From Dehalococcoidia bacterium (lineage in GTDB: Bacteria; Chloroflexota; Dehalococcoidia; GIF9; AB-539-J10): a DNA stretch of 44,187 nucleotides. This document shows positions 6,436-17,573 of the stretch, piece by piece (the first letter of the stretch is position 1; each line of letters opens with the position of its first letter). Both the position numbers and the translations under genes were made by a program. Location: assembly GCA_021157895.1 (NCBI GenBank), contig JAGGVQ010000015.1, positions 1 through 44,187 on the forward strand. Reading direction: 5' to 3'. The notes beneath the pieces are model-generated. The model was given only the letters and a program-made list of their open reading frames with translations. It was not told where the DNA came from and did not search any database.

Positions 6436-6629
6436 TATTCAAATTCCGGCTTTTTTGCCAATTTTTGGCTGTCGTCAAGTCCTTTTGATAACAGTTTGCT
6501 AACATCTGGCCCTAGCATTTTATTGAAATTTTCGGCAGCAGTTCTCTACAGCTCTGCTACTACATTGTTGTAAGTATCAAGAGTGTGGGCAGCGCTGGCA
6601 TACCCCAGCCTTCTAGCTACTTCTTCGAA
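6369..6629 (-). pseudogene. C-terminal remnant of a tyrosine integrase at tRNA-Lys
   Basis: On the minus strand an 87-codon frame reads EEVARRLGYASAAHTLDTY and then NNVVAEL, the standard end of a phage-type tyrosine recombinase with its nucleophilic Tyr in LDTY. A TAG interrupts it where relatives usually have Gln, then the frame continues TAAENFNKMLGP, again family-like. The frame runs through the whole 3' part of tRNA-Lys in antisense and stops at 6371-6369. Upstream, homology ends at the pdxT stop codon, so about three quarters of the gene are deleted. Family assignment is by motif recognition. Confidence 0.72.
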
Positions 6630-7204
6630 GCGGCGGAGGTGACAATTTTTAAGAAATAGCCATGTAGCCTTGGATCTCCAGTTAGCTCAGGGTGAAAAGC
6701 AGTGACCAGCAACCTCCCCTGCCTGGCAGCTACGGGAGTGCCATCTGGTAATCTGGCTAGAATTTCTACCTTCTGGCTTGCGCTTTCAATAAAGGGGGCG
6801 CGGATAAAAACAGCGGGAAACGGTTTGTTTCCTAAGGCAGGGATTGATAATTCAGTCTCAAAACTGTCTGTCTGTCTCCCGAATGCGTTACGCCTGACTG
6901 TCATATCCATGAGGGCCAGAGTCTCTGTATCGAGATTAGAGATCTTCTTGGCAAGCAGGATCATCCCGGCACATGTGCCCCAGATGGGCGCGCCCCCCTT
7001 GGCTATTTCTCGCAGGGGTTGGGTGAGGTTAAAACTTTGCATCAGATTGAGCATAGCGGAACTTTCTCCCCCGGGGATAATAAAACCATCTTTTCCATCA
7101 AGCTCATCGGGCAAGCGAATGGGAGAAGCCTCTGCCCCCAGTTGTTGCATGATATGGATATGTTCCAAGAATGCTCCTTGCAAAGCAAGCACTCCTATTT
7201 TCAT
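6617..7204 (-). CDS. pdxT: Pyridoxal 5'-phosphate synthase glutaminase subunit
   Basis: A 195-residue class I glutamine amidotransferase that supplies ammonia to PdxS in PLP synthesis. LALQGAFLEHIHI at the N-terminus, IPGGESSAMLNL, the nucleophile C78 in GTCAGM, and the dyad H171/E173 in FHPELTGD are all present. It overlaps the nadE stop as ATGA. No pdxS gene is in the window, which is unusual because the two are often adjacent. The last few residues abut the integrase scar: normal PdxT sequence ends about YFLKIV and the final SAASKK may derive from the junction. Confidence 0.93.
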   Translation of the reverse strand: MKIGVLALQGAFLEHIHIMQQLGAEASPIRLPDELDGKDGFIIPGGESSAMLNLMQSFNLTQPLREIAKGGAPIWGTCAGMILLAKKISNLDTETLALMDMTVRRNAFGRQTDSFETELSIPALGNKPFPAVFIRAPFIESASQKVEILARLPDGTPVAARQGRLLVTAFHPELTGDPRLHGYFLKIVTSAASKK

Positions 7205-8943
7205 GTCTCAGCCGACTCTTTGAACCGGTTTGTGATGGGAAGCCTTCTGTCTCGGCCGAATGCTCTTGGTGTTATTTTGACTCCTGGTGGTGCCTGACGG
7301 CGCTTGTACTCACTCGTATCTACCAGCCGAGCGACTCTCCTGACTGTCTTTTCATCGATTCCCATAGCGATGATCTGTTCCACGCTTTTGTTTTCCTCGA
7401 CATAAGCCATTAGGATGGGATCGAGGAGGTTATATGGAGGCAACGTGTCGATATCCTGTTGCTCGGGTCTTAGCTCGGCGGAGGGTGCTTTATTTATGAT
7501 AGTGGAAGGAATGAGTTCTGAGCCCTCTACTGAGTTTCGGTATCTGGCTAGTTTGTAAACTGTAGTCTTGAACACATCTTTTATAACCGCGAATCCACCC
7601 ACCATGTCACCGTATAGAGTGGTATAGCCGGTGGCTATCTCGCTTTTGTTGCCTGTGGCAAGAACAAGCCAGCCGAATTTATTTGACAGTGCCATCAGAA
7701 TATTGCCTCTGATACGGGCTTGAATGTTCTCCTCGGTCACATTAGGCTTGATCCCTTTAAAAGGTGCCGCAAGCATTTCCAGATAGGCTTGAAAGGCCTT
7801 CTCAATTGGGATGGTCATGAGCTTAATGCCCAGGTTGCGGGCCAGGAGCTCGGCATCGGATATGCTACTGGGAGAAGAATATCTCGAAGGCATCGCTACC
7901 CCAACTACATTTGAGAACCCCAGAGCATCAACTGCGATGGATGCTACTAGGCCTGAATCGATTCCGCCGGAGAGGCCAATCAGCACTTTTTCAAAGCCAT
8001 TTTTATTTACATAATCTCGTGTGCCTAACACCAACGCGGCATAGATATCACCGGGAACATCGCACATCTGGGTTTGTCTTTGTGGGAGCGATGGTTTTGG
8101 GGCGATGTGTGGTTTTTCAGATACCGCTATTTTTGTTGTGTGCCATCGTTGTTCTTCCAGCAGTGCTTTCTTCCTCCACTTGGGATCATGAAGGCGCGCG
8201 CGAAAGACCGCCTCTATATCAAGATCGGCTACTATCAGGTCTTCTTCGAATTGTTTACCCTTGGCTAACAATCGTCCCTTCTCGTCCAATATCATGCTAT
8301 TGCCATCAAAAACCAGTTCATCCTGTCCACCTACCAGGTTGTTATGAGCTACTAAGGCGACATTATCTGAGGCACGGGTACTCAGCATTCTCTCTCTGAA
8401 ATTCCGTTTGCCCGAATGATATGGTGAAGCGCTTATGTTCACTATGACCCCGGCCCCAGAGTAGGCTTGCGTGGTAGTTGGGCCTGCTTCATACCAGATG
8501 TCCTCGCAGATGTTAACGCCTACGCCTATGCCGGCTATGATATACACGGGGCATTCACTACCAGCTTTGAAGTAGCGGTTCTCATCGAAGACCCCATAGT
8601 CGGGAAGATATATTTTGTGGTATATGCCAGCTATCTTCCCATCGTGGATTACGGCGGCGGCATTGTAGATGTCACTTCGGGCATCAACAAAGCCAACCAC
8701 GATGGCAAGCCCAGAGGAGCTATCAACTATCTTGCCTAGAGATCGCAGGTTTTCATCTATAAACTGTGGTCTGAGCAGGAGGTCCTCCGGCGGGTAACCG
8801 CAGATCGCAAGTTCCGGGAATATGAGCAGATCAACTCCCATGGGTCTTGCCTCGGCAATTGTCTTCAGAATCTTCTGGACGTTGCCCGCAAAGTCGCCTA
8901 CGATAGTATTGATCTGAGCCATACCAATTCGCAGTCCGCACAT
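7201..8943 (-). CDS. nadE: Glutamine-hydrolysing NAD+ synthetase
   Basis: A 580-residue two-domain enzyme. The N-terminal nitrilase-like glutaminase has Glu in FPELAICGYP, Lys in YHKIYLPDYGVFDE and Cys in GVNICEDIW. The C-terminal synthetase has GLSGGIDSGLVASI as its ATP pyrophosphatase loop, then LATGNKSEIATGY and GGFAVIKDVFKT. Ammonia is channelled to deamido-NAD. The open frame extends 35 codons further upstream into glnA, but ATG at 8943 is preceded by GGGGGA and is followed at once by the family start CGLRIGMAQIN. It is 41 bp downstream of glnA and overlaps pdxT. Confidence 0.94.
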   Translation of the reverse strand: MCGLRIGMAQINTIVGDFAGNVQKILKTIAEARPMGVDLLIFPELAICGYPPEDLLLRPQFIDENLRSLGKIVDSSSGLAIVVGFVDARSDIYNAAAVIHDGKIAGIYHKIYLPDYGVFDENRYFKAGSECPVYIIAGIGVGVNICEDIWYEAGPTTTQAYSGAGVIVNISASPYHSGKRNFRERMLSTRASDNVALVAHNNLVGGQDELVFDGNSMILDEKGRLLAKGKQFEEDLIVADLDIEAVFRARLHDPKWRKKALLEEQRWHTTKIAVSEKPHIAPKPSLPQRQTQMCDVPGDIYAALVLGTRDYVNKNGFEKVLIGLSGGIDSGLVASIAVDALGFSNVVGVAMPSRYSSPSSISDAELLARNLGIKLMTIPIEKAFQAYLEMLAAPFKGIKPNVTEENIQARIRGNILMALSNKFGWLVLATGNKSEIATGYTTLYGDMVGGFAVIKDVFKTTVYKLARYRNSVEGSELIPSTIINKAPSAELRPEQQDIDTLPPYNLLDPILMAYVEENKSVEQIIAMGIDEKTVRRVARLVDTSEYKRRQAPPGVKITPRAFGRDRRLPITNRFKESAET

Positions 8944-8984
8944 ATGATCCCCCAGGATACAGAATACAACAGACTGTATGGTAC

Positions 8985-10328
8985 TTACAAGATTGACAGG
9001 TATCTCTTGAGCTCGTAATCGGTCACCTGAGTTCGGTACATATCCCACTCGATCTTCTTATTCTTGATGAAAGCATCGAAAACATGATTGCCGAGGGCTT
9101 TTCGCACGAGCTCTTTTTTTTCAGTGACCTGGATAGCTTCCCATAGGCTAGCAGGTAGGGTTCCTATTCCTCTTTGCTTCCTTTCCTCCTCGCTCATTGC
9201 GTACACATTTTTCTCTACTGGCTCAGGCACCTCGTATTTCCTTTCAATTCCTTCCAAACCAGCTGCCAGCATTGCACTAAATGTAAGGTATGGATTGCAG
9301 GCGGGATCGGCAGATCTAAACTCCACCCGAGTGGCAGTTTCCTTTCCTGGTTTGTATTCCGGCACTCTGATCAGGTCTGCCCGGTTCCTTCGTGCCCAAG
9401 ATAGATATACAGGTGCCTCATACCCCGGGACCAAGCGCTTGTAGGAATTGACCCACTGGTTACAGACCAGGGTAATCTCCTGTGCATGTTTCAGAAGCCC
9501 TGCAATATAGAATTTAGCCTCTTCTGAAAGGTTGAACTGATCATCCTTGGCAAAAAAGGCATTCCGGTCATCTCTGAATAGTGACTGGTGCACGTGCATT
9601 CCGCTGCCGTTTACACCGAATATAGGTTTAGGCATAAATGTGGCGTAGACTCCGTGTTTCAAGGCTATTTGCTTAACTACTAGGCGGTAGGTCATTACAT
9701 TGTCAGCCATAGTCAGGGCATCAGTGTATCTCATGTCTATCTCATGCTGGCTAGGAGCGACCTCATGGTGGGAATATTCGATGCCGATCCCCATTTTTTC
9801 TAAGGTGAGCACTGTCTCTCTCTTCAGGTCAGAAGCCATATCAAGAGGGGTTAAATCGAAATAACTCCCCTCGTCCAGTGGCTCAGTGCCATTTGAGTCT
9901 CGAAAATAGAAATACTCGAGCTCAGGTCCTACGTAGAAGGTGTAGCCGAGGTCGGCTGCTCGCTTCAGGTTTTTTTTTAGGATATATCTGGGGTCGCCTT
10001 CGAAGGGTTCACCCCCTGGCTTCAAAATGTCACAGAATATCCTGGCTACAGTGTGATGTTCTGTGGGGAACCATGGAAGTAACTGGAAGGTATTGGTGTC
10101 GGGCATAGCTATCATATCGCTTTCGTCTATGCGTGCAAAACCCTCGATGGATGAGCCGTCAAACCCCATTCCCTCTTTCAGTGCCCTCTCAAGTTCTGTA
10201 TTGGTGATAGTGAAGCTTTTGAGTACACCCAATATGTCGGTGAACCATAGTCTGATGAATTTCACGTTATGCTCTTTTACCATCTGGAGAACATATTCGC
10301 GAGATTTGTCTTTTTCTTTAGTAGTCAT
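8985..10328 (-). CDS. glnA: Glutamine synthetase, type I
   Basis: A 447-residue GS I enzyme of the short alpha-type length, assimilating ammonia into glutamine. GMGFDGSSIEGF near residues 53-64 holds the Asp loop; GPELEYFYF, SHHEVAPSQHEIDMRY, GSGMHVHQSLF and ACNPYLTFSAMLAAGLEGIE are the metal, glutamate and ATP regions. I do not see the longer insertions of the adenylylated beta type. A Shine-Dalgarno sequence GAGGGAGAT precedes the ATG. It heads glnA-nadE-pdxT and lies downstream of nrpR-hisF-glutamate-synthase-like gene on the same strand, fitting nitrogen control. Confidence 0.96.
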   Translation of the reverse strand: MTTKEKDKSREYVLQMVKEHNVKFIRLWFTDILGVLKSFTITNTELERALKEGMGFDGSSIEGFARIDESDMIAMPDTNTFQLLPWFPTEHHTVARIFCDILKPGGEPFEGDPRYILKKNLKRAADLGYTFYVGPELEYFYFRDSNGTEPLDEGSYFDLTPLDMASDLKRETVLTLEKMGIGIEYSHHEVAPSQHEIDMRYTDALTMADNVMTYRLVVKQIALKHGVYATFMPKPIFGVNGSGMHVHQSLFRDDRNAFFAKDDQFNLSEEAKFYIAGLLKHAQEITLVCNQWVNSYKRLVPGYEAPVYLSWARRNRADLIRVPEYKPGKETATRVEFRSADPACNPYLTFSAMLAAGLEGIERKYEVPEPVEKNVYAMSEEERKQRGIGTLPASLWEAIQVTEKKELVRKALGNHVFDAFIKNKKIEWDMYRTQVTDYELKRYLSIL

Positions 10329-10714
10329 TGGTTATCTCCCTCAACATAATTGTTGTCATCATAGCACAAATCAGAACCAGATTTAGTAAGCTTACTATAT
10401 TCTGTCTTCCCATCCCCCCTGAGTTTTTTGTAAGGCTTCTCATCATTATATCTTCTGTGGGATAGTTAAGCATCTTACTGTTGAAACCTACGCTGTCTCT
10501 TGGGAAATCGAGAAGCATAATACTGGTGCTATGGTATTCTGGCCGGAGGAGAGCCAGAGGAATATAGCAGGGCCACCGTTTCCTATTACCTGCTCAGGTC
10601 GTATCTAGGGATAGGAAGTATTCAGGGCCTCCTAAAAGAAAAATAGCATTACCAAATGGGCTTCACTTTGCAGAACTTATTGTTGCCTCCTGTTGGTTTT
10701 ATTGGCCTCTTTTC
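10329..10714 (-). other. 386-bp gap before glnA: candidate leader and promoters
   Basis: No gene is supported here. On the minus strand an extended -10 (TGC then TATGAT, 10366-10358) lies about 30 nt before the glnA start, with no good -35. Just upstream of it, 10384-10397 is the perfect 14-bp palindrome TAGTAAGCTTACTA, suitable for a dimeric regulator. Another TATAAT is at 10450-10445. Around 10530-10620 there are short nested stems (ACCTGAGCAGGT, TGGC/GCCA), but I cannot match them to a known riboswitch. I did not find a GGNA-N6-TNCC site. Confidence 0.45.
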
Positions 10715-12283
10715 TTATCCCAGGATTTGCTCAATCTCCTTCTTGTCTGTTTCCATTATGTATGGGATACCCGAAACATCTGCAGCTTCTCGGGTTAGGG
10801 CAAATATGTCGTTCCTATCTAGCAAGTTGAGAACAAATTTCCGTTCCCCTGCCATGAGTTGTTTCAGTCCGATTGCAAGCCTATCATAGTAGGAATATAC
10901 CCCTATTGCTGCAGGGGGGATACGTCTGAAGGCTTCCTCTCCATATTCTTCCTTGAGTTCTGCTGCATTGATGAAAGTCTTGAACAGCGCATCATCGTAT
11001 TCTGCTCCCTCGCCATATTTTTTCCTAAGCAGCCTAGCCTGTGTTTTTCCAACCATGGCGGCAGTTAAGGTGGAGCGCCCCATGCACACTGCCTTTACAT
11101 GAGGTGCCCCCAGAGCCAGTGCTTTAAATATTTGATCCTCTAGTGCGATTCCTCCTGCTATGGCGCAACTAGGAATAAATTCTCCTTTCTCTGCCAGCCT
11201 GCTGAGGAATTTGTACAGGAGGCTTTCTAAGTATACTGTAGGAATTCCCCACTCATTCATCATGCGCCAAGGGCTCATGCCCGTACCACCACCAGCTCCA
11301 TCTACGGTGAGCAAGTCTATTTTTGCCTCTGAGGCAAACTTCACCGCCCGGGCTAGATCTGCTGGTCGATAAGCTCCTGTTTTCAATGTGATGTATTTGG
11401 CACCTATTTTTCTTAGCCGCTCTACTTCTTTGAGGAATGTTTCCTCTTCTACCATGCCCAGACGAGAATGACGCTCAAACTCTTTTATGGCTCCAGCGTT
11501 GTACGCTGCCTGAGCTGATGGGCTTTCCGGATCAGGTATAACAATGTAGCCCCTTTTCTTGAGTTCCATGGCTCTTTCTAAGGAGGGCAACTTGACTTCT
11601 CCGCCGATGTCCTTGGCCCCTTGCCCCCATTTTAGCTCGATGCCTTGAATTTTTAGTTTCTCCACAGCGTACTCAGGAACGCCAATCCTGGTATCTTCCA
11701 CATTGGCTTGGACCAGCATAGCGCCATAGCCGTTGTACCAATCTTTATAAATCTCTACTCTTCTTGCCAACTCTGGTGATTTCACCACCTTGCCACTTTT
11801 AAATTCGGCATTGGGGTCCATGCCACAGACATTTTCACCGCATACAAGTACAGCGCCAGTCATAGCAATGGCGATAGCAGTCCCTTCCCAATTAATTCGG
11901 GCAATCTCTGTAGACCCCAGTGCGCCAGTGAAGAAGGGAACTTTCATATTGATCTTATTTCTTCCGGCTCCTATTTGAGTGGAAACATCTACGTTTTGAA
12001 ACAGGGCCTTATCTGAATCTGCCTCGATTCCTGCGGCTCCAACACAGCTCCCCTGAATGTTGAAGTGAGAGAAATCGACGGGATAGTCTTTTTCCGATCC
12101 AGCCATAGTTTTGCCGAAAGGCTGAGGATACATAACCTCTTTTCCCCTGATGGCGGATTTTCCCACCTCACATGTTCCTGGACAGCCATCCTCACAGACT
12201 ACACATAAGCCTGAACTTGGTGAAGCCGCTACCCTGTTTCTAGTGCCTGTCGCGGCACTGGCATTAGGTTTGCTTAAAGACAT
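10715..12283 (-). CDS. FMN-binding glutamate-synthase-like protein (archaeal-type GltB core)
   Basis: A 522-residue protein. Residues 27-38 are CVVCEDGCPGTC (CX2CX3CX3C), a likely Fe-S or metal site. From about residue 75 it follows the glutamate synthase alpha/beta barrel: KVPFFTGALGSTEIARINWEG, LKWGQGAKDIGGEVKLPS, TVDGAGGGTGMSPW and CAIAGGIALEDQIFKALALGA, which is the FMN-phosphate region. It lacks the N-terminal glutaminase domain and the C-terminal GXGXG helix of classical GltB, and no gltD follows. Conversion of 2-oxoglutarate plus ammonia or glutamine to glutamate is plausible but unproven. It is 24 bp downstream of hisF. Confidence 0.85.
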   Translation of the reverse strand: MSLSKPNASAATGTRNRVAASPSSGLCVVCEDGCPGTCEVGKSAIRGKEVMYPQPFGKTMAGSEKDYPVDFSHFNIQGSCVGAAGIEADSDKALFQNVDVSTQIGAGRNKINMKVPFFTGALGSTEIARINWEGTAIAIAMTGAVLVCGENVCGMDPNAEFKSGKVVKSPELARRVEIYKDWYNGYGAMLVQANVEDTRIGVPEYAVEKLKIQGIELKWGQGAKDIGGEVKLPSLERAMELKKRGYIVIPDPESPSAQAAYNAGAIKEFERHSRLGMVEEETFLKEVERLRKIGAKYITLKTGAYRPADLARAVKFASEAKIDLLTVDGAGGGTGMSPWRMMNEWGIPTVYLESLLYKFLSRLAEKGEFIPSCAIAGGIALEDQIFKALALGAPHVKAVCMGRSTLTAAMVGKTQARLLRKKYGEGAEYDDALFKTFINAAELKEEYGEEAFRRIPPAAIGVYSYYDRLAIGLKQLMAGERKFVLNLLDRNDIFALTREAADVSGIPYIMETDKKEIEQILG

Positions 12284-12307
12284 TGTTTTCCCTCCTTATA
12301 ATATTAT

Positions 12308-13078
12308 TTATGCCTTTACTTGTATTCCTTTTTCCTTCAGATATCTTTTAGCTTCTGGTATAGATATCTCCCCGAAGTGGAAAATTGATGCTGCCAGCAC
12401 TGCAGAGGCCTTGCCTTTAATTATGGCATCATAGAGATGTTCCAGTTTCCCTGCTCCTCCGGAAGCAGTAACTGGAATGTTGACTGCCTCGGCTGTGGCT
12501 CGTGTCATTTCCAGATCGTATCCTTCTCTTGTCCCATCGACATCTTTGCTGGTGAGCAAAATCTCTCCTGCGCCCAATTTCTCTACCTTCCTTGACCAGT
12601 CGACGATATCCATGCCTGTTGCGCTGTTTCCTCCTTTGATTATCACCTCTAGTCTGGGAAACTTGTTTCCTAGTGTATTCTTGCGACCATCGATAGCAAC
12701 GATTATTCTGTTCTTACCAAATTTTCTGGAGGCCTGTGATATAAGCTCGGGGCTTTCAACTGCAGCGGTATTGATTGATACCTTATCTACGCCGAGGTCG
12801 AATAAGGCTTGCATGTCTTCAATAGTGCTGATGCCACCACCTACGGAGAAGGGGATAGTGACTACTTGTTGTACCCTTTTGACCCATTCCAATCTGGTTT
12901 TCCGGTTTTCCACAGTGGCAGTAATATCAAGAAACACCAGCTCATCAGCGCCATCATGACAGTATGTCTTGGCTGCCTCTACTGGATCTCGGGCATCTCT
13001 TAAGGCTACGAATTTTACACCTTTCACCACCTTTCCATCCTTAATATCAAGACAGGGGATTATTTTGACTGGGTCCAT
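12308..13078 (-). CDS. hisF: Imidazole glycerol phosphate synthase cyclase subunit
   Basis: A 256-residue TIM barrel. IIPCLDIKDGKVVKGVKF at the N-terminus carries the first catalytic Asp; VAIDGRKN near residue 130 carries the second; PFSVGGGIST and VTASGGAGKLEHL are the two phosphate-binding loops. It uses ammonia from HisH to form IGP and AICAR. No hisH is present here, and hisA-hisI lie 25 kb away on the same strand, so hisF has been recruited into the nitrogen island between nrpR (27 bp upstream) and the glutamate-synthase-like gene. Confidence 0.95.
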   Translation of the reverse strand: MDPVKIIPCLDIKDGKVVKGVKFVALRDARDPVEAAKTYCHDGADELVFLDITATVENRKTRLEWVKRVQQVVTIPFSVGGGISTIEDMQALFDLGVDKVSINTAAVESPELISQASRKFGKNRIIVAIDGRKNTLGNKFPRLEVIIKGGNSATGMDIVDWSRKVEKLGAGEILLTSKDVDGTREGYDLEMTRATAEAVNIPVTASGGAGKLEHLYDAIIKGKASAVLAASIFHFGEISIPEAKRYLKEKGIQVKA

Positions 13079-13105
13079 GTATTTTTCCTCCTTACACTGG
13101 AAATT

Positions 13106-14101
13106 TCATAGCTCATCGAACTTTACTAGACTCTGATATTTCATTACAGCGTGCATGGCGTAGTTTTCTACATCTATGCCTGATTCAACCGCGGCAGCCA
13201 CTGGGTTGAGTCCGCTAGTAAATATCATGCCTGACCTGTTGGTCTCTACAGGAGTTTCGCATACAGGTTTGCTTGTTTCCCCAATAATGATAGGACCTTT
13301 AATACCGATGTTATTAAACCTGGCAGCAATTTCCTCTACCTCATCATGGCAGAAGGAGGGTATTTCGCGGAAGCTGGCTAATACTTTTCCCTCGCCATCT
13401 TTCGCCACTTTGCCTGCACTGGTCATCTTGCTGGCGATAAATATTTCTGATGGGTCCAGCGAAGAGCCTGAATAATATATGAGGTTGATGAATCTTATGG
13501 GTTTATAGTCCTTGAATTGTAGTATGCCCGCGAACTTGGAATATATAGGGATCCCTCTTTTTGCTAGTACTCCATTGACTATTATGCTGCAAACGCTGGC
13601 GAATCCCGTCTTGCCTTGTGGTATAGTTATGCCCCCTAGGCTTTCGCCTTGATGAGCTATGGATACCAGATCGCTAACACAGAGACCAGCTTGAAATACA
13701 GGTTTCATTGCCATAATCGCTTGATTGAATTTGTCCTCGGGGAAAAGCGAAATGTTCATTGGCACAATGCCTTTGCGCTTATCTATATCGAACTTTGTTT
13801 GGTAGGCGAGGAACTCTATTCTGGAGGCGATAAGGCCAATCTTGTCGCTAACCAACGCACTCTGTAGCTCTTCAATGCCAGCCTGTGTTATCAACCTGCC
13901 GTCTCTGCCTGCACTCTGAGTAAACCCACGCTCATCCATTATTTTGAGGTGATATCTGACAGCGCGTTCGCTTAGCTGGATGCCATATTCTTGTAGTTGG
14001 TGAGACACAATTCTGGCACCAAGAGGTTCATCAGACTGGCTTAGAACCTTTAGGATAGATATAACCTTGCGTTCTACCTCTTGAGGGGATTGCAGTAACA
14101 C
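13106..14101 (-). CDS. nrpR: NrpR-type nitrogen regulator (winged helix plus DUF128 domain)
   Basis: A 331-residue predicted repressor. Residues about 9-75 form a winged helix (VISILKVLSQSDEPLGARIV, LSERAVRYHLKIMDERG). The remaining 250 residues are one NrpR regulatory (DUF128) domain, with GITIPQGKTGFASVCSIIVN and ETPVETNRSGMIFTSGLNPVAA. In methanogens NrpR represses nif and glnA and is released by 2-oxoglutarate. Here it is the first gene of nrpR-hisF-glutamate-synthase-like, followed by glnA-nadE-pdxT, so a similar role is likely. The start is GTG at 14101 with only a weak AGAAG upstream; a strong promoter lies at 14178-14151. Confidence 0.85.
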   Translation of the reverse strand: MLLQSPQEVERKVISILKVLSQSDEPLGARIVSHQLQEYGIQLSERAVRYHLKIMDERGFTQSAGRDGRLITQAGIEELQSALVSDKIGLIASRIEFLAYQTKFDIDKRKGIVPMNISLFPEDKFNQAIMAMKPVFQAGLCVSDLVSIAHQGESLGGITIPQGKTGFASVCSIIVNGVLAKRGIPIYSKFAGILQFKDYKPIRFINLIYYSGSSLDPSEIFIASKMTSAGKVAKDGEGKVLASFREIPSFCHDEVEEIAARFNNIGIKGPIIIGETSKPVCETPVETNRSGMIFTSGLNPVAAAVESGIDVENYAMHAVMKYQSLVKFDEL

Positions 14102-14131
14102 TTATCTTCTTTAAATCTGTTAGCGACCGTA

Positions 14132-14145
14132 GGCAACCTTTTGCC
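14132..14145. promoter_or_regulatory. Candidate NrpR operator
   Basis: GGCAACCTTTTGCC, a 5-bp inverted repeat (GGCAA/TTGCC) with a 4-bp spacer and 14 bp in all. It lies 5 bp downstream of the -10 box, over the expected transcription start. Archaeal NrpR sites are GGAA-N6-TTCC, also 14 bp; this one reads GGCA-N6-TGCC, one change per half-site. Assignment is inferred from geometry and position. Confidence 0.5.
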
Positions 14146-14150
14146 GTATT

Positions 14151-14178
14151 ATTTTACATATTTACATTGATTTGTCAA
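14151..14178 (-). promoter_or_regulatory. Promoter of the nrpR operon
   Basis: On the minus strand TTGACA (14178-14173) and TAAAAT (14156-14151) are 16 bp apart, close to the sigma-70 consensus. The expected start near 14144 falls in the inverted repeat. The leader to the GTG at 14101 would be about 43 nt. Confidence 0.7.
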
Positions 14179-14419
14179 GTATGCTACGGAAATATATGTA
14201 TATAAATAGCCTATTTTGCATGGCTACAGGCGAAAAATAACTATAGGGTATTTTAGATTGATATGGGGATTTTATAGAACACGGCAGAATTTTCTAGCAG
14301 ATGGGCATTATTTTTTCTTGGTTCGTTTGTGCTAAGTATCGGCGATTTATACCGTAGGATGATATTTTGTCATTGCGGTTGGAAGAGTAAAAAATAGTAT
14401 AAGGGCGCAATGCTAGTGG

Positions 14420-15283
14420 CTAGCTAGAGCTAGCAGAATGCTCCTGTTTTGGTGCCAGCCCGGCAGTTATTCTATCGATGATGATTGCCAGCAATACGAT
14501 GGAAATGCCTGCTTCAAAACCTCTACCGATGTCAATGCGGTTGATGGCCAACAGTACTTCTAATCCCAATCCCCTGGCCCCAATCATGGAGGCAATGACC
14601 ACCATTGATAAGGCCATCATTGTAGTTTGATTGATGCCTACCATTATTGAGGGGATGGCCAGGGGCAGCTGAACCTCCATAAGTGTTTGTCTTGGCGTAG
14701 CACCAAAGGATCGGGATGCCTCAATAACATCTGGCGATACTTGCCTGATGCCAACATTTGTTAACCTGATGACGGGAGGTACAGCATATATAATGGTAGC
14801 AAATACTGCAGGAACTTTTCCTAATCCAAAAAGCATCAGCGCAGGAATCAAATAGACGAAGCTGGGCATGGTCTGCATAGCATCTAGTATTGGCCTGATA
14901 ATAGTTTCCACTAGGTTGCTGCGGGCCATCGCTATCCCTGTTGGAATGCCGATAAGCAGGGATATTATTACAGCAGCAATGACGATAGCCAAAGTCATCA
15001 TAGCCAGGTCCCAGTAGCCGAAGCTGCCGATTAGAACTAAGAATCCTGCCATGAGTAATCCTGCCCACCACCGATGCGTCGCGCGCCATGCGACTATGCC
15101 TACTAATACAATCACCAGTGTCCAGGGTAGCCATAGAAGAAATTTCTCAATATATAGAAGCATAAACAGAATAGCATCACCAATAACGTCGAATACACCA
15201 CTGAAGACGCGCAATATCCAATCCATAGCGGCATCAGTCCATTCAGCTAGGGGCACATGTATAAATGCAGGAAATTCAATCAC
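14420..15283 (-). CDS. proW: Glycine betaine/proline ABC transporter permease
   Basis: A 287-residue inner-membrane permease with about six or seven hydrophobic segments. MTLAIVIAAVIISLLIGIPTG starts the binding-protein-dependent transport domain, and the EAA loop is EASRSFGATPRQTLMEVQLPLAIPSIMVG near residues 195-223. It would form the channel for compatible solutes such as glycine betaine or proline betaine. It overlaps the proV stop by 8 bp, and all three transporter genes form one operon in the order binding protein, ATPase, permease. Confidence 0.92.
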   Translation of the reverse strand: MIEFPAFIHVPLAEWTDAAMDWILRVFSGVFDVIGDAILFMLLYIEKFLLWLPWTLVIVLVGIVAWRATHRWWAGLLMAGFLVLIGSFGYWDLAMMTLAIVIAAVIISLLIGIPTGIAMARSNLVETIIRPILDAMQTMPSFVYLIPALMLFGLGKVPAVFATIIYAVPPVIRLTNVGIRQVSPDVIEASRSFGATPRQTLMEVQLPLAIPSIMVGINQTTMMALSMVVIASMIGARGLGLEVLLAINRIDIGRGFEAGISIVLLAIIIDRITAGLAPKQEHSASSS

Positions 15284-16508
15284 CGAGTTCTGTCTCCTTA
15301 TCCTGAATCATGCTTCCTAATATCGTACTGGTGTGAATCTCTCCCAGAAATTTCCCGTCATCATCAACAACGGGAATAGGGTGTCTGGTTGATACCGCCA
15401 GCGGGAACAGGTCTTCCACTATGGTGTCTGAAGTACACCTGAGTAGATCGGGTTCCAGCGCGTTCATGATGGATTTGCCACCACCCTTAATTATTTCCAG
15501 CAGTCGCTCAACAGTTACCAATCCGCGGAATTTGCTTCCCCTCCCCAGGACAAAAGCATTGTCCAGTTCAGTACTCTCAAGTATATGTATGGCGGTCTTG
15601 GGTCCTTGCCACTCATAAAGTAATACGTTGGGTTGCTCCATGATACGTTTAGCCGTGAGGACTTTGGCAGGTGATGCGTCCTGGACAAACTCGCGAACAT
15701 AACCATCACTGGGAGCGGTTATCACTTCTTCAGGGTCACCGATTTGAATTATTTCACCATCCTTCATGATAGCAATACGATTTCCTAATTTAAGAGCCTC
15801 GTGGAGATCATGAGTTACAAATAGGATAGTTTTATGAACCTTTTCCTGGATGTCCAGCAACTCATCCTGCATTTGGCGGCGAATCAGGGGGTCCAACCCA
15901 CTGAAAGGTTCATCCATAATCAACATCTCAGGATCAGTTGACAGAGCTCGTGCAATACCCACACGTTGCTGCATACCGCCGCTGAGTGCGGAGGGGAGAT
16001 AACTCTCCCATCCCTTGAGCCCAACTAGTTCGATCATCTCCTGTGCTTTGGCCTCACGTTTACTCTTGGCCATTCCTCTGATCTTGAGCCCATAGGCAAC
16101 ATTCTGGAGAATGTTGCGATGTGGAAGCAAACCAAAATATTGAAACACCATACTGATGGTGTGCCGGCGCAGCTCAGTAAGTTGCTGTGCCGTGCAGTCA
16201 CAGACATTCTCTCCATTGATGAGTATTTTGCCAGCTGTAGGCTCGATAAGGCGTAGGATGCACCTGACCAAGGTGGACTTTCCGCTGCCGGATAGACCCA
16301 TCAGCACGAAAATTTCTCCACGATGTACCTGAAAAGACACATCTTTTATTGCCAGCACACAACCGGTTTTTTCCAGTATGTCAGTTTTGCCATCAAACTG
16401 TGTGTCAGAATCGAGAACCTTCTCAACATTATCTCCGAAGATCTTCCAGAGATTGTTTACCTCAATGCTGATTTCCTCATTCTGCAGGTAGATATTATTA
16501 ATTGCCAA
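15276..16508 (-). CDS. proV: Glycine betaine/proline ABC transporter ATPase
   Basis: A 410-residue ATPase. The Walker A motif is GLSGSGKST near residues 71-79, the signature is LSGGMQQR and Walker B is MLIMDEPFSGLDP, followed by the switch His in FVTHDLHEAL. The C-terminal 130 residues form a CBS-domain pair, beginning near AKRIMEQPNVLLY and ending GEIHTSTILGSM. CBS domains in OpuA-type ATPases sense ionic strength, so transport is probably gated by osmotic stress. It lies 30 bp after the binding-protein gene. Confidence 0.94.
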   Translation of the reverse strand: MAINNIYLQNEEISIEVNNLWKIFGDNVEKVLDSDTQFDGKTDILEKTGCVLAIKDVSFQVHRGEIFVLMGLSGSGKSTLVRCILRLIEPTAGKILINGENVCDCTAQQLTELRRHTISMVFQYFGLLPHRNILQNVAYGLKIRGMAKSKREAKAQEMIELVGLKGWESYLPSALSGGMQQRVGIARALSTDPEMLIMDEPFSGLDPLIRRQMQDELLDIQEKVHKTILFVTHDLHEALKLGNRIAIMKDGEIIQIGDPEEVITAPSDGYVREFVQDASPAKVLTAKRIMEQPNVLLYEWQGPKTAIHILESTELDNAFVLGRGSKFRGLVTVERLLEIIKGGGKSIMNALEPDLLRCTSDTIVEDLFPLAVSTRHPIPVVDDDGKFLGEIHTSTILGSMIQDKETELGD

Positions 16509-16538
16509 TTTAGGTCTCTTTGTTGCTGATATTAGTAC

Positions 16539-17573
16539 CTACGGCAGTGCATCTTTGACTTTAGCCGCTACATCTGCCGGCACCCATGACGTCCATACAG
16601 TCTCATACTCCTGGAGGAAATAGATGGCAGCAGCTTCAACATCGGCATCTTCTGTATTCATGTAGGCTAAAACAGCATTTGCTTGTGCAGTCGTGGTTTC
16701 ATAGTTGGTGAGAAACTCTATTACTGCCGGGTCTGCACTATCCTTCCATTCGGCGTTAACTATGATGTTTACATTGTTGGAAGGATAAGCACAGGCACGA
16801 GTTGTTTCCCATATAGTTTCATTGTATGCGGGTTCCTCCAGCTTCGTCATGTCAAGCTGACCTAGAACCCATGTCGGTTCCCAGTAGTATCCGAGCCAGG
16901 GCTCGCCTTTCTGGTAGGCAGCAACCATAGAGCCGGCCAGGGCTGCGCCTGAGCCAGTTGGAAAGTCGGTATAATACTCGGTTAACCCGTATTCCTTAAG
17001 TTTCACTGTATTAATACCGGTGCATTCCCATCCGGGAGCGCTATTGTAAAAACGCCCCTTGTCAGGGGTTTCCGGATCCTGGAAGAGCTGCCAGTACTGG
17101 GGCAGGGCAGCTACCGATGTCAGGTTGGGAGCTATAGGCTCTATTCCTCGTTCGGGGTCTCCCTTGACCATGTAAGTAGGTACAAGCCATCCCTGCCAGT
17201 TGTCATTGTAGTTTGTTCCTAAATCAACCACATCACCGGCAGCGATGTGGGTATCATAAGCCTCTTGTTGGTTCTCTACCCAGCACTCCATGTTTATATC
17301 TACATCGCCTTGAGCCAGGCCTTCAAACAGAGGGATGGTATCACCAGGAATAAAGGATTCCTGCTCATCTATTGTCAGGCCGTAACCATGTTCTAGGATA
17401 AAGGCAGCGATGCGGTTATGTGCACGTGCGCTATCCCAACCAAGATCGGCAAAACGTACAGGCTGCGCAGGGGCTTGCTCTTGGGATCCACAACCAGCAA
17501 GTGGCACCAGGACAAAAGCGGCTGCTAGGATAAACATCAATGGTTTACTGAATAACCCGTGGCTTTTTATCAT
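16539..17573 (-). CDS. proX: Glycine betaine-type substrate-binding lipoprotein
   Basis: A 344-residue OpuAC-family protein. The signal sequence ends in a lipobox LAGC at residues 25-28, so it is anchored on the outside of the membrane. The ligand region includes ADLGWDSARAHNRIAAFILE, INMECWVENQQ, PGWECTGIN and GYYWEPTWVLGQL, rich in Trp as expected for a betaine-binding aromatic cage. The exact ligand, glycine betaine, proline betaine or choline, is not fixed. AAGGAGGT lies 9 nt before the ATG. It is the first gene of the transporter operon. Confidence 0.92.
   Translation of the reverse strand: MIKSHGLFSKPLMFILAAAFVLVPLAGCGSQEQAPAQPVRFADLGWDSARAHNRIAAFILEHGYGLTIDEQESFIPGDTIPLFEGLAQGDVDINMECWVENQQEAYDTHIAAGDVVDLGTNYNDNWQGWLVPTYMVKGDPERGIEPIAPNLTSVAALPQYWQLFQDPETPDKGRFYNSAPGWECTGINTVKLKEYGLTEYYTDFPTGSGAALAGSMVAAYQKGEPWLGYYWEPTWVLGQLDMTKLEEPAYNETIWETTRACAYPSNNVNIIVNAEWKDSADPAVIEFLTNYETTTAQANAVLAYMNTEDADVEAAAIYFLQEYETVWTSWVPADVAAKVKDALP

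Follow-up and report, generated by a model that had tools for sequence, protein, structure and literature searches.

The window, that is, the whole stretch of DNA that was analysed (44,187 nucleotides of contig JAGGVQ010000015.1 from a Dehalococcoidia bacterium), carries a run of genes headed by nrpR, with a promoter and an inverted repeat (dyad) immediately upstream. The features are listed in the order of transcription.

14173–14178, minus strand: −35 hexamer TTGACA (promoter scan)
14151–14156, minus strand: −10 hexamer TAAAAT, after a 16-nt spacer from the −35 (sequence reading and promoter scan)
14132–14145, minus strand: predicted NrpR operator GGCAAAAGGTTGCC, GGCA-N6-TGCC with 5-bp arms GGCAA/TTGCC (sequence, conservation, position weight matrix [PWM])
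13106–14101, minus strand: nrpR, 331 aa, GTG start, HTH_12 (residues 14–79) and one NRD domain (residues 88–325)
12308–13078, minus strand: hisF, second gene of the predicted operon (TIGR00735, 335 bits, over the cut-off)
10715–12283, minus strand: gene for a gltB-like protein, a partial match to the glutamate synthase conserved region (PF01645, residues 277–397 only)
8985–10328, minus strand: glnA, type I glutamine synthetase (TIGR00653, 548 bits, over the cut-off)
7201–9048, minus strand: nadE, glutamine-dependent NAD+ synthase (profile matches)
6617–7204, minus strand: pdxT, glutamine amidotransferase, probable last gene of the run (PF01174, 198 bits)

The nrpR product has the architecture that we take as defining NrpR, an N-terminal HTH_12 winged helix (PF08461, 77 bits; cut-off 21.4) and at least one NRD domain (PF01995, NRD1_2, 265.5 bits; cut-off 25); it is the single PF01995 match in its assembly (737 kb, 68% complete), and the sole solved relative found for it is MJ0159 (3nek, E 6e-23). 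The gltB-like protein has no NCBIfam match. The relatives that we refer to as named loci were the 80 best among 452 in GTDB genomes, not a random sample; they are mostly from Dehalococcoidia, with some from Syntrophaceae/Smithella and other Deltaproteobacteria. Of 75 sources, namely the window and 74 named loci, 45 contain the hisF cluster and 41 the gltB-like cluster. The controlled unit is likely nrpR-hisF-gltB-like-glnA-nadE; we infer its co-transcription, operons being read here from gene order only. Elsewhere the nrpR run continues with either the gltB-like gene or a glutamate dehydrogenase gene (cluster in 24 of the 75 sources), the two occurring together only in L035 and L092 among the gene spans listed for named loci L032–L111.

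The locus of a same-genus genome (G014, L200) differs from the window in several respects. Its nrpR (from about codon 20–30) and hisF are approximately 65% identical to those of the window (window positions 12290–14000), whereas the promoter side is approximately 87% and the gltB-like gene approximately 95–97% identical; judged from this pattern, the nrpR-hisF pair may have been swapped in place for a homologous pair with the operator retained. Between its gltB-like gene and glnA, G014 carries a 4Fe-4S-hisH-oxidoreductase-gltB1-hisF-gltB2-gltB3-regulator-amtB-glnK block that is absent between these genes in the window (10329–10714); the window's assembly, 68% complete, contains no match to amtB or, up to E 1e-20, to the 4Fe-4S protein. 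A weak C-terminal NrpR match with three stops (E 2e-6) lies between gltB3 and the regulator in G014 (C155:18247-18453) and is perhaps a decayed second nrpR.

The promoter TTGACA-N16-TAAAAT has 11 of 12 consensus letters and ranks best among the 10 promoter-like sites that a promoter scan finds in positions 12500–17000 (8.2 expected). Five nucleotides (AATAC, 14150–14146, minus strand) separate the −10 hexamer from GGCAAAAGGTTGCC, which reads GGCAACCTTTTGCC on the plus strand and ends 30 nt before the nrpR GTG at 14101; because the dyad begins 5 nt past the −10, it covers the expected transcription start. A preliminary description had noted a near-consensus promoter with a dyad at the expected start, and both sequence reading and the scan confirm it. 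It had also likened the dyad to the archaeal GGAA-N6-TTCC with one change in each half, and the spacing is indeed the same: 14 bp, with half-sites of the forms GGNA and TNCC 6 apart (4-6-4), located in the promoter of the nitrogen-assimilation genes nrpR-hisF-gltB-like-glnA-nadE. The third arm letter in the window (C/G) matches neither published archaeal operator (A/T or T/A); since this letter differs between the two archaea, we do not treat it as defining.

The palindrome GGCAA-N4-TTGCC occurs once in the window (0.04 expected), and 4 of 100 shuffles of the window contain it at least once. GGNAAAMRGTTNCC has one perfect match in the window's own assembly, which is the nrpR site. From the window alone, then, the site is unusual but not conclusive; that it is more than chance follows from comparison with relatives.

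NrpR was found in 31 of the 52 genomes of the family. For the comparison we counted 92 non-redundant loci (109 minus 15 near-identical duplicates and 2 with short upstream DNA), without using L031, whose NrpR is interrupted by stops, or the additional NrpR found in G012. The preliminary description had staked its reading on conservation of the repeat upstream of orthologous nrpR genes, and this is what we find: 61 of the 92 loci have GGNA-N6-TNCC in the 120 nt that precede the NrpR match, compared with on average 2.2 and at most 6 in 200 dinucleotide shuffles. Across all tiles of these loci, 340 of 6697 contain the pattern. Where a locus has two dyads, as a few do, the one most similar to the consensus was used, a choice that tilts the result slightly towards conservation there. 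The 61 sites served to build a PWM, which makes their scores in-sample, and its nulls are single-letter shuffles; the window dyad, itself among the 61, scores 26.2, where the 99% shuffle level is 4.7.

In 9 of the 31 loci without a strict dyad, a degenerate copy exceeds this 99% level (scores 12.6–22.9), some of these sites scoring under the highest of 1840 shuffles (14.4). In 8 more of the 31 (L039, L042, L045, L046, L053, L021, L023 and L024), other genes of the same-strand run come before nrpR, and the site is found ahead of the leading gene (in L045 it falls within an over-extended hisF frame); because of these, the dyad, as read from its positions, associates with the promoter and not with nrpR per se. 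In L044 the site is approximately 180 nt before nrpR. This leaves 13 of the 92 loci with no site either at nrpR or ahead of the run that contains it. No strict intergenic dyad precedes the run of nrpR in L020 (19 kb searched) or in L025, L026, L029 and L030; L090, the nrpR locus of G018, has a weak site only (PWM 3.5); and in L022, L027, L028, L091, L101, L104 and L110 the run begins beyond the examined DNA or at the edge of a contig. Gene maps were examined for 12 chosen loci of 74. In L025, L026, L029 and L030 an opposite-strand glutamate dehydrogenase gene bounds the nrpR run, so nrpR does not look autoregulated there; in L025, L026 and L029 the head of a nearby glutamate synthase (GOGAT) operon has the site, and the glutamate dehydrogenase gene separates it from nrpR. 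One locus, L071, has two perfect dyads in tandem before a single nrpR (at −87 and −65 from the match), and its assembly holds a second nrpR locus, L084.

The aligned consensus of the 61 sites is (C/A)GG(C/A/T)AAAC(G/A)GTT(G/T/A)CC(T/G)A(T/C)TNCC. The search pattern proposed earlier, GGCA-N6-TGCC, was therefore right in that the repeat recurs at nrpR but too narrow in its letters, the consensus of the dyad in these bacteria being GG(C/A/T)AAAC(G/A)GTT(G/T/A)CC. The arms covary: at 36 of the 61 sites letter 3 is the complement of letter 12 (permutation mean 21.9, p 2.5e-4), and at 39 the outer letter 0 is that of letter 15 (permutation mean 25.8, p 1.5e-4), in tests that ignore the relatedness of the loci; for the 36 sites with symmetric arms, one complementary pair must have been exchanged for another at least 9 times on the NrpR tree, and the other 25 sites have asymmetric arms. 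In G014, both arms have changed together relative to the window (GGC..GCC to GGT..ACC) within a stretch of which 75 of 89 letters are identical (approximately 84%, the site counted in).

Many of the sites in relatives are longer than the window's. A third half-site, TNCC, is found at exactly positions 18–21, that is, 7 bp beyond the second, in 32 of the 61 loci, whereas each of the other offsets between 15 and 30 has it in 0 to 2 loci; the mirror GGNA at −7 is found in 9. Taken with the core letters (G or A at position 8; G at position 9 in 84% of the 61 loci), the third TNCC completes a further dyad, (A/G)GTT-N6-TNCC, offset by 7 bp from the first, so the third half-site in these relatives probably makes an overlapping second operator. 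Overlapping NrpR operators reportedly act at glnK1 of Methanococcus maripaludis (Lie et al. 2010), where two dimers could bind; the likeness lies in the third half-site, and the difference is that the bacterial overlapping form is located at nrpR promoters. The window's own site lacks it (GGTC, not TNCC, at positions 18–21), and we read that site as a simple predicted operator without a third half-site.

A sigma-70 promoter with at least 9 of 12 consensus letters is located just upstream of the dyad in 49 of the 61 loci (single-letter shuffles: mean 3.1, maximum 7); the promoter of G014, for example, is TTGATA-N16-TAAAAT. The gap from the −10 to the dyad is 0–5 nt in 35 of these 49, whereas the distance from the dyad to the start of the NrpR match is spread from −29 to −105. 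The tight first distance and the loose second one imply that the operator is tied to the start of transcription, not of translation, as would be expected for a repressor that blocks initiation.

The dyad also recurs away from nrpR. GGHAAAMRGTTDCC has 52 perfect matches in the 52 genomes of the family, compared with 16 for the reversed control pattern; 12 are nrpR promoters and 4 are heads of split-GOGAT operons (G011, G013, G023 and G042). Within contig reach, this operon begins with genes for a 4Fe-4S protein and HisH, after which come the components of a split glutamate synthase of archaeal type, along with another hisF; in G023 and G042 its promoter faces an amtB gene. Among the other 36 matches, one (G019) is clearly intergenic, without an adjoining nitrogen gene, and the remainder fall within called ORFs, of which some are short (62–189 aa) and possibly spurious. 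At the GOGAT heads, a site exceeds the 99% shuffle level of 4.1 in 14 of 16 NrpR-bearing genomes, two of the scores (12.1 and 13.5) being under the highest of 950 shuffles (14.0); it is absent from the GOGAT heads of NrpR-bearing G018 and G036 (the latter with NrpR fragments only). The split glutamate synthase operon is a second predicted target. The main evidence against an exclusive link with NrpR is the GOGAT-head dyad in genomes that lack NrpR: G013 has a strong site (PWM 17.4), and G050 and G051 have GGCA-N6-TGCC with a different core (PWM −0.2 and −2.5).

For the window's genome we claim no wider regulon, because matches to GGNAAAMRGTTNCC with at most one mismatch do not exceed the control in its assembly (15 versus 15). 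GGAAACTTGTTTCC, an exact archaeal-type GGAA-N6-TTCC at 12657–12670, lies inside hisF; GGAA-N6-TTCC occurs 3 times in the window (0.92 expected), a count that 7 of 100 shuffles reach, and we treat this site as a chance occurrence.

Alternatively, the dyad could be the operator of a different regulator, e.g., the OmpR-type winged-helix protein (PF00486) that many relatives encode beside gltB3 in the GOGAT operon. G050 and G051, with the dyad and no NrpR, encode a 50%-identical relative of this protein. However, G000 has no match to it and carries a perfect operator at nrpR, as do G024–G027, G029, G033, G034 and G037, for which the best matches listed are 28–41% identical (all nine assemblies are incomplete); identities of at least 45% are found only in genomes other than these nine. 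In a tally of nine genomes (G000 and those of L092, L095, L103, L105–L108 and L111), the best match is 33–36% identical in seven and absent in two. Both published NrpR operators, moreover, occur exactly among the bacterial sites. We therefore consider an OmpR-type binder improbable for the nrpR site; at the GOGAT heads of G050 and G051 the case against it is less clear.

The repeat might instead act in RNA, as a leader, attenuator or terminator hairpin, since GGCAA/TTGCC could fold into a 5-bp stem with a 4-nt loop and a scan lists the dyad as terminator-like on the plus strand; that scan, however, finds 4 terminator-like sites where 3.9 are expected, and a transcript that starts within the dyad would miss part of the stem. 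The tight link to the −10, with its loose counterpart toward the NrpR match, and the third half-site, a direct repeat of TNCC 7 bp on that a hairpin leaves unexplained, make this reading very unlikely. Less probable still is a chance palindrome in an AT-rich promoter: a few shuffles of the window do produce one, but conservation in 61 of the 92 loci and the covariation of the arms lead us to reject it. The dyad is, in our judgement, very probably the operator of the NrpR encoded just downstream, which is predicted to autorepress its operon; the earlier suggestion of a candidate NrpR operator thus gains support from conserved sequence, position and arm covariation across relatives.

In M. maripaludis, the NrpR operator GGAAN6TTCC is located upstream of nif, glnK-amtB, glnA and other genes, and the same 2009 paper places NrpR in certain Bacteria as well (PMC2723118). 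The bacterial protein belongs to the same family and its predicted sites have the same 4-6-4 dyad, 11 of the 61 being exactly GGAA-N6-TTCC; glnA and glnK-amtB among the archaeal targets resemble the bacterial nitrogen targets. M. maripaludis NrpR has two NRD domains; the bacterial case differs in having one, as well as a sigma-70 promoter and an operator before nrpR itself, and the window has GGCA/TGCC instead of GGAA/TTCC. A potential operator for NrpRI of Methanosarcina mazei is GGTA-N6-TACC (PMC3177094). Exactly this sequence is found at 8 of the 61 bacterial sites, including that of G014. Methanosarcina uses NrpRI with NrpRII, the latter reportedly mediating contacts to general transcription factors, whereas we propose that one protein acts at a bacterial promoter. 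Expression of archaeal nrpR is stated by one source not to be regulated by nitrogen supply (PMC9765008), so autorepression in bacteria would differ from the archaeal case. Partial literature searches, covering few subscription journals, found no report of an operator of a bacterial NrpR by title or abstract start; the kind of system is known, and what appears new within these searches is an operator for a bacterial NrpR, together with its promoter geometry, its autoregulation and its extended form.

Binding by NrpR, repression and release by 2-oxoglutarate are each what we infer for the window. NrpR would grip the two half-sites via its winged helix and, the dyad being located 5 nt past the sigma-70 −10 and over the expected start, the bound protein should exclude RNA polymerase or block initiation. 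Repression would cover nrpR itself together with hisF, the gltB-like gene, glnA and nadE. With a shortage of nitrogen, 2-oxoglutarate would bind the NRD domain and the repressor would be released; for archaeal NrpR, 2-oxoglutarate is described as lowering operator affinity and so releasing the repressor (PMC11957540, PMC4902934).

In a broader reading that we somewhat favour, NrpR and its operator code form a nitrogen switch that crosses domains. In Dehalococcoidia and Syntrophaceae-type bacteria it would be mostly an autorepressor at a sigma-70 promoter, often with three half-sites (two overlapping dyads), that adjusts glutamine synthetase and glutamate synthase, and in some genomes also ammonium transport, according to 2-oxoglutarate; the half-site code would be readable between bacteria and methanogens, with the third arm letter drifting, often as compensated pairs. 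NrpR is known mainly as a nitrogen repressor of methanogens; if our assignment is right, bacterial NrpR gains a defined operator, a promoter geometry, a small regulon and autoregulation, and the operator code has been kept across domains. The assignment also proposes how the largely uncultured Dehalococcoidia and syntrophs control ammonium assimilation.
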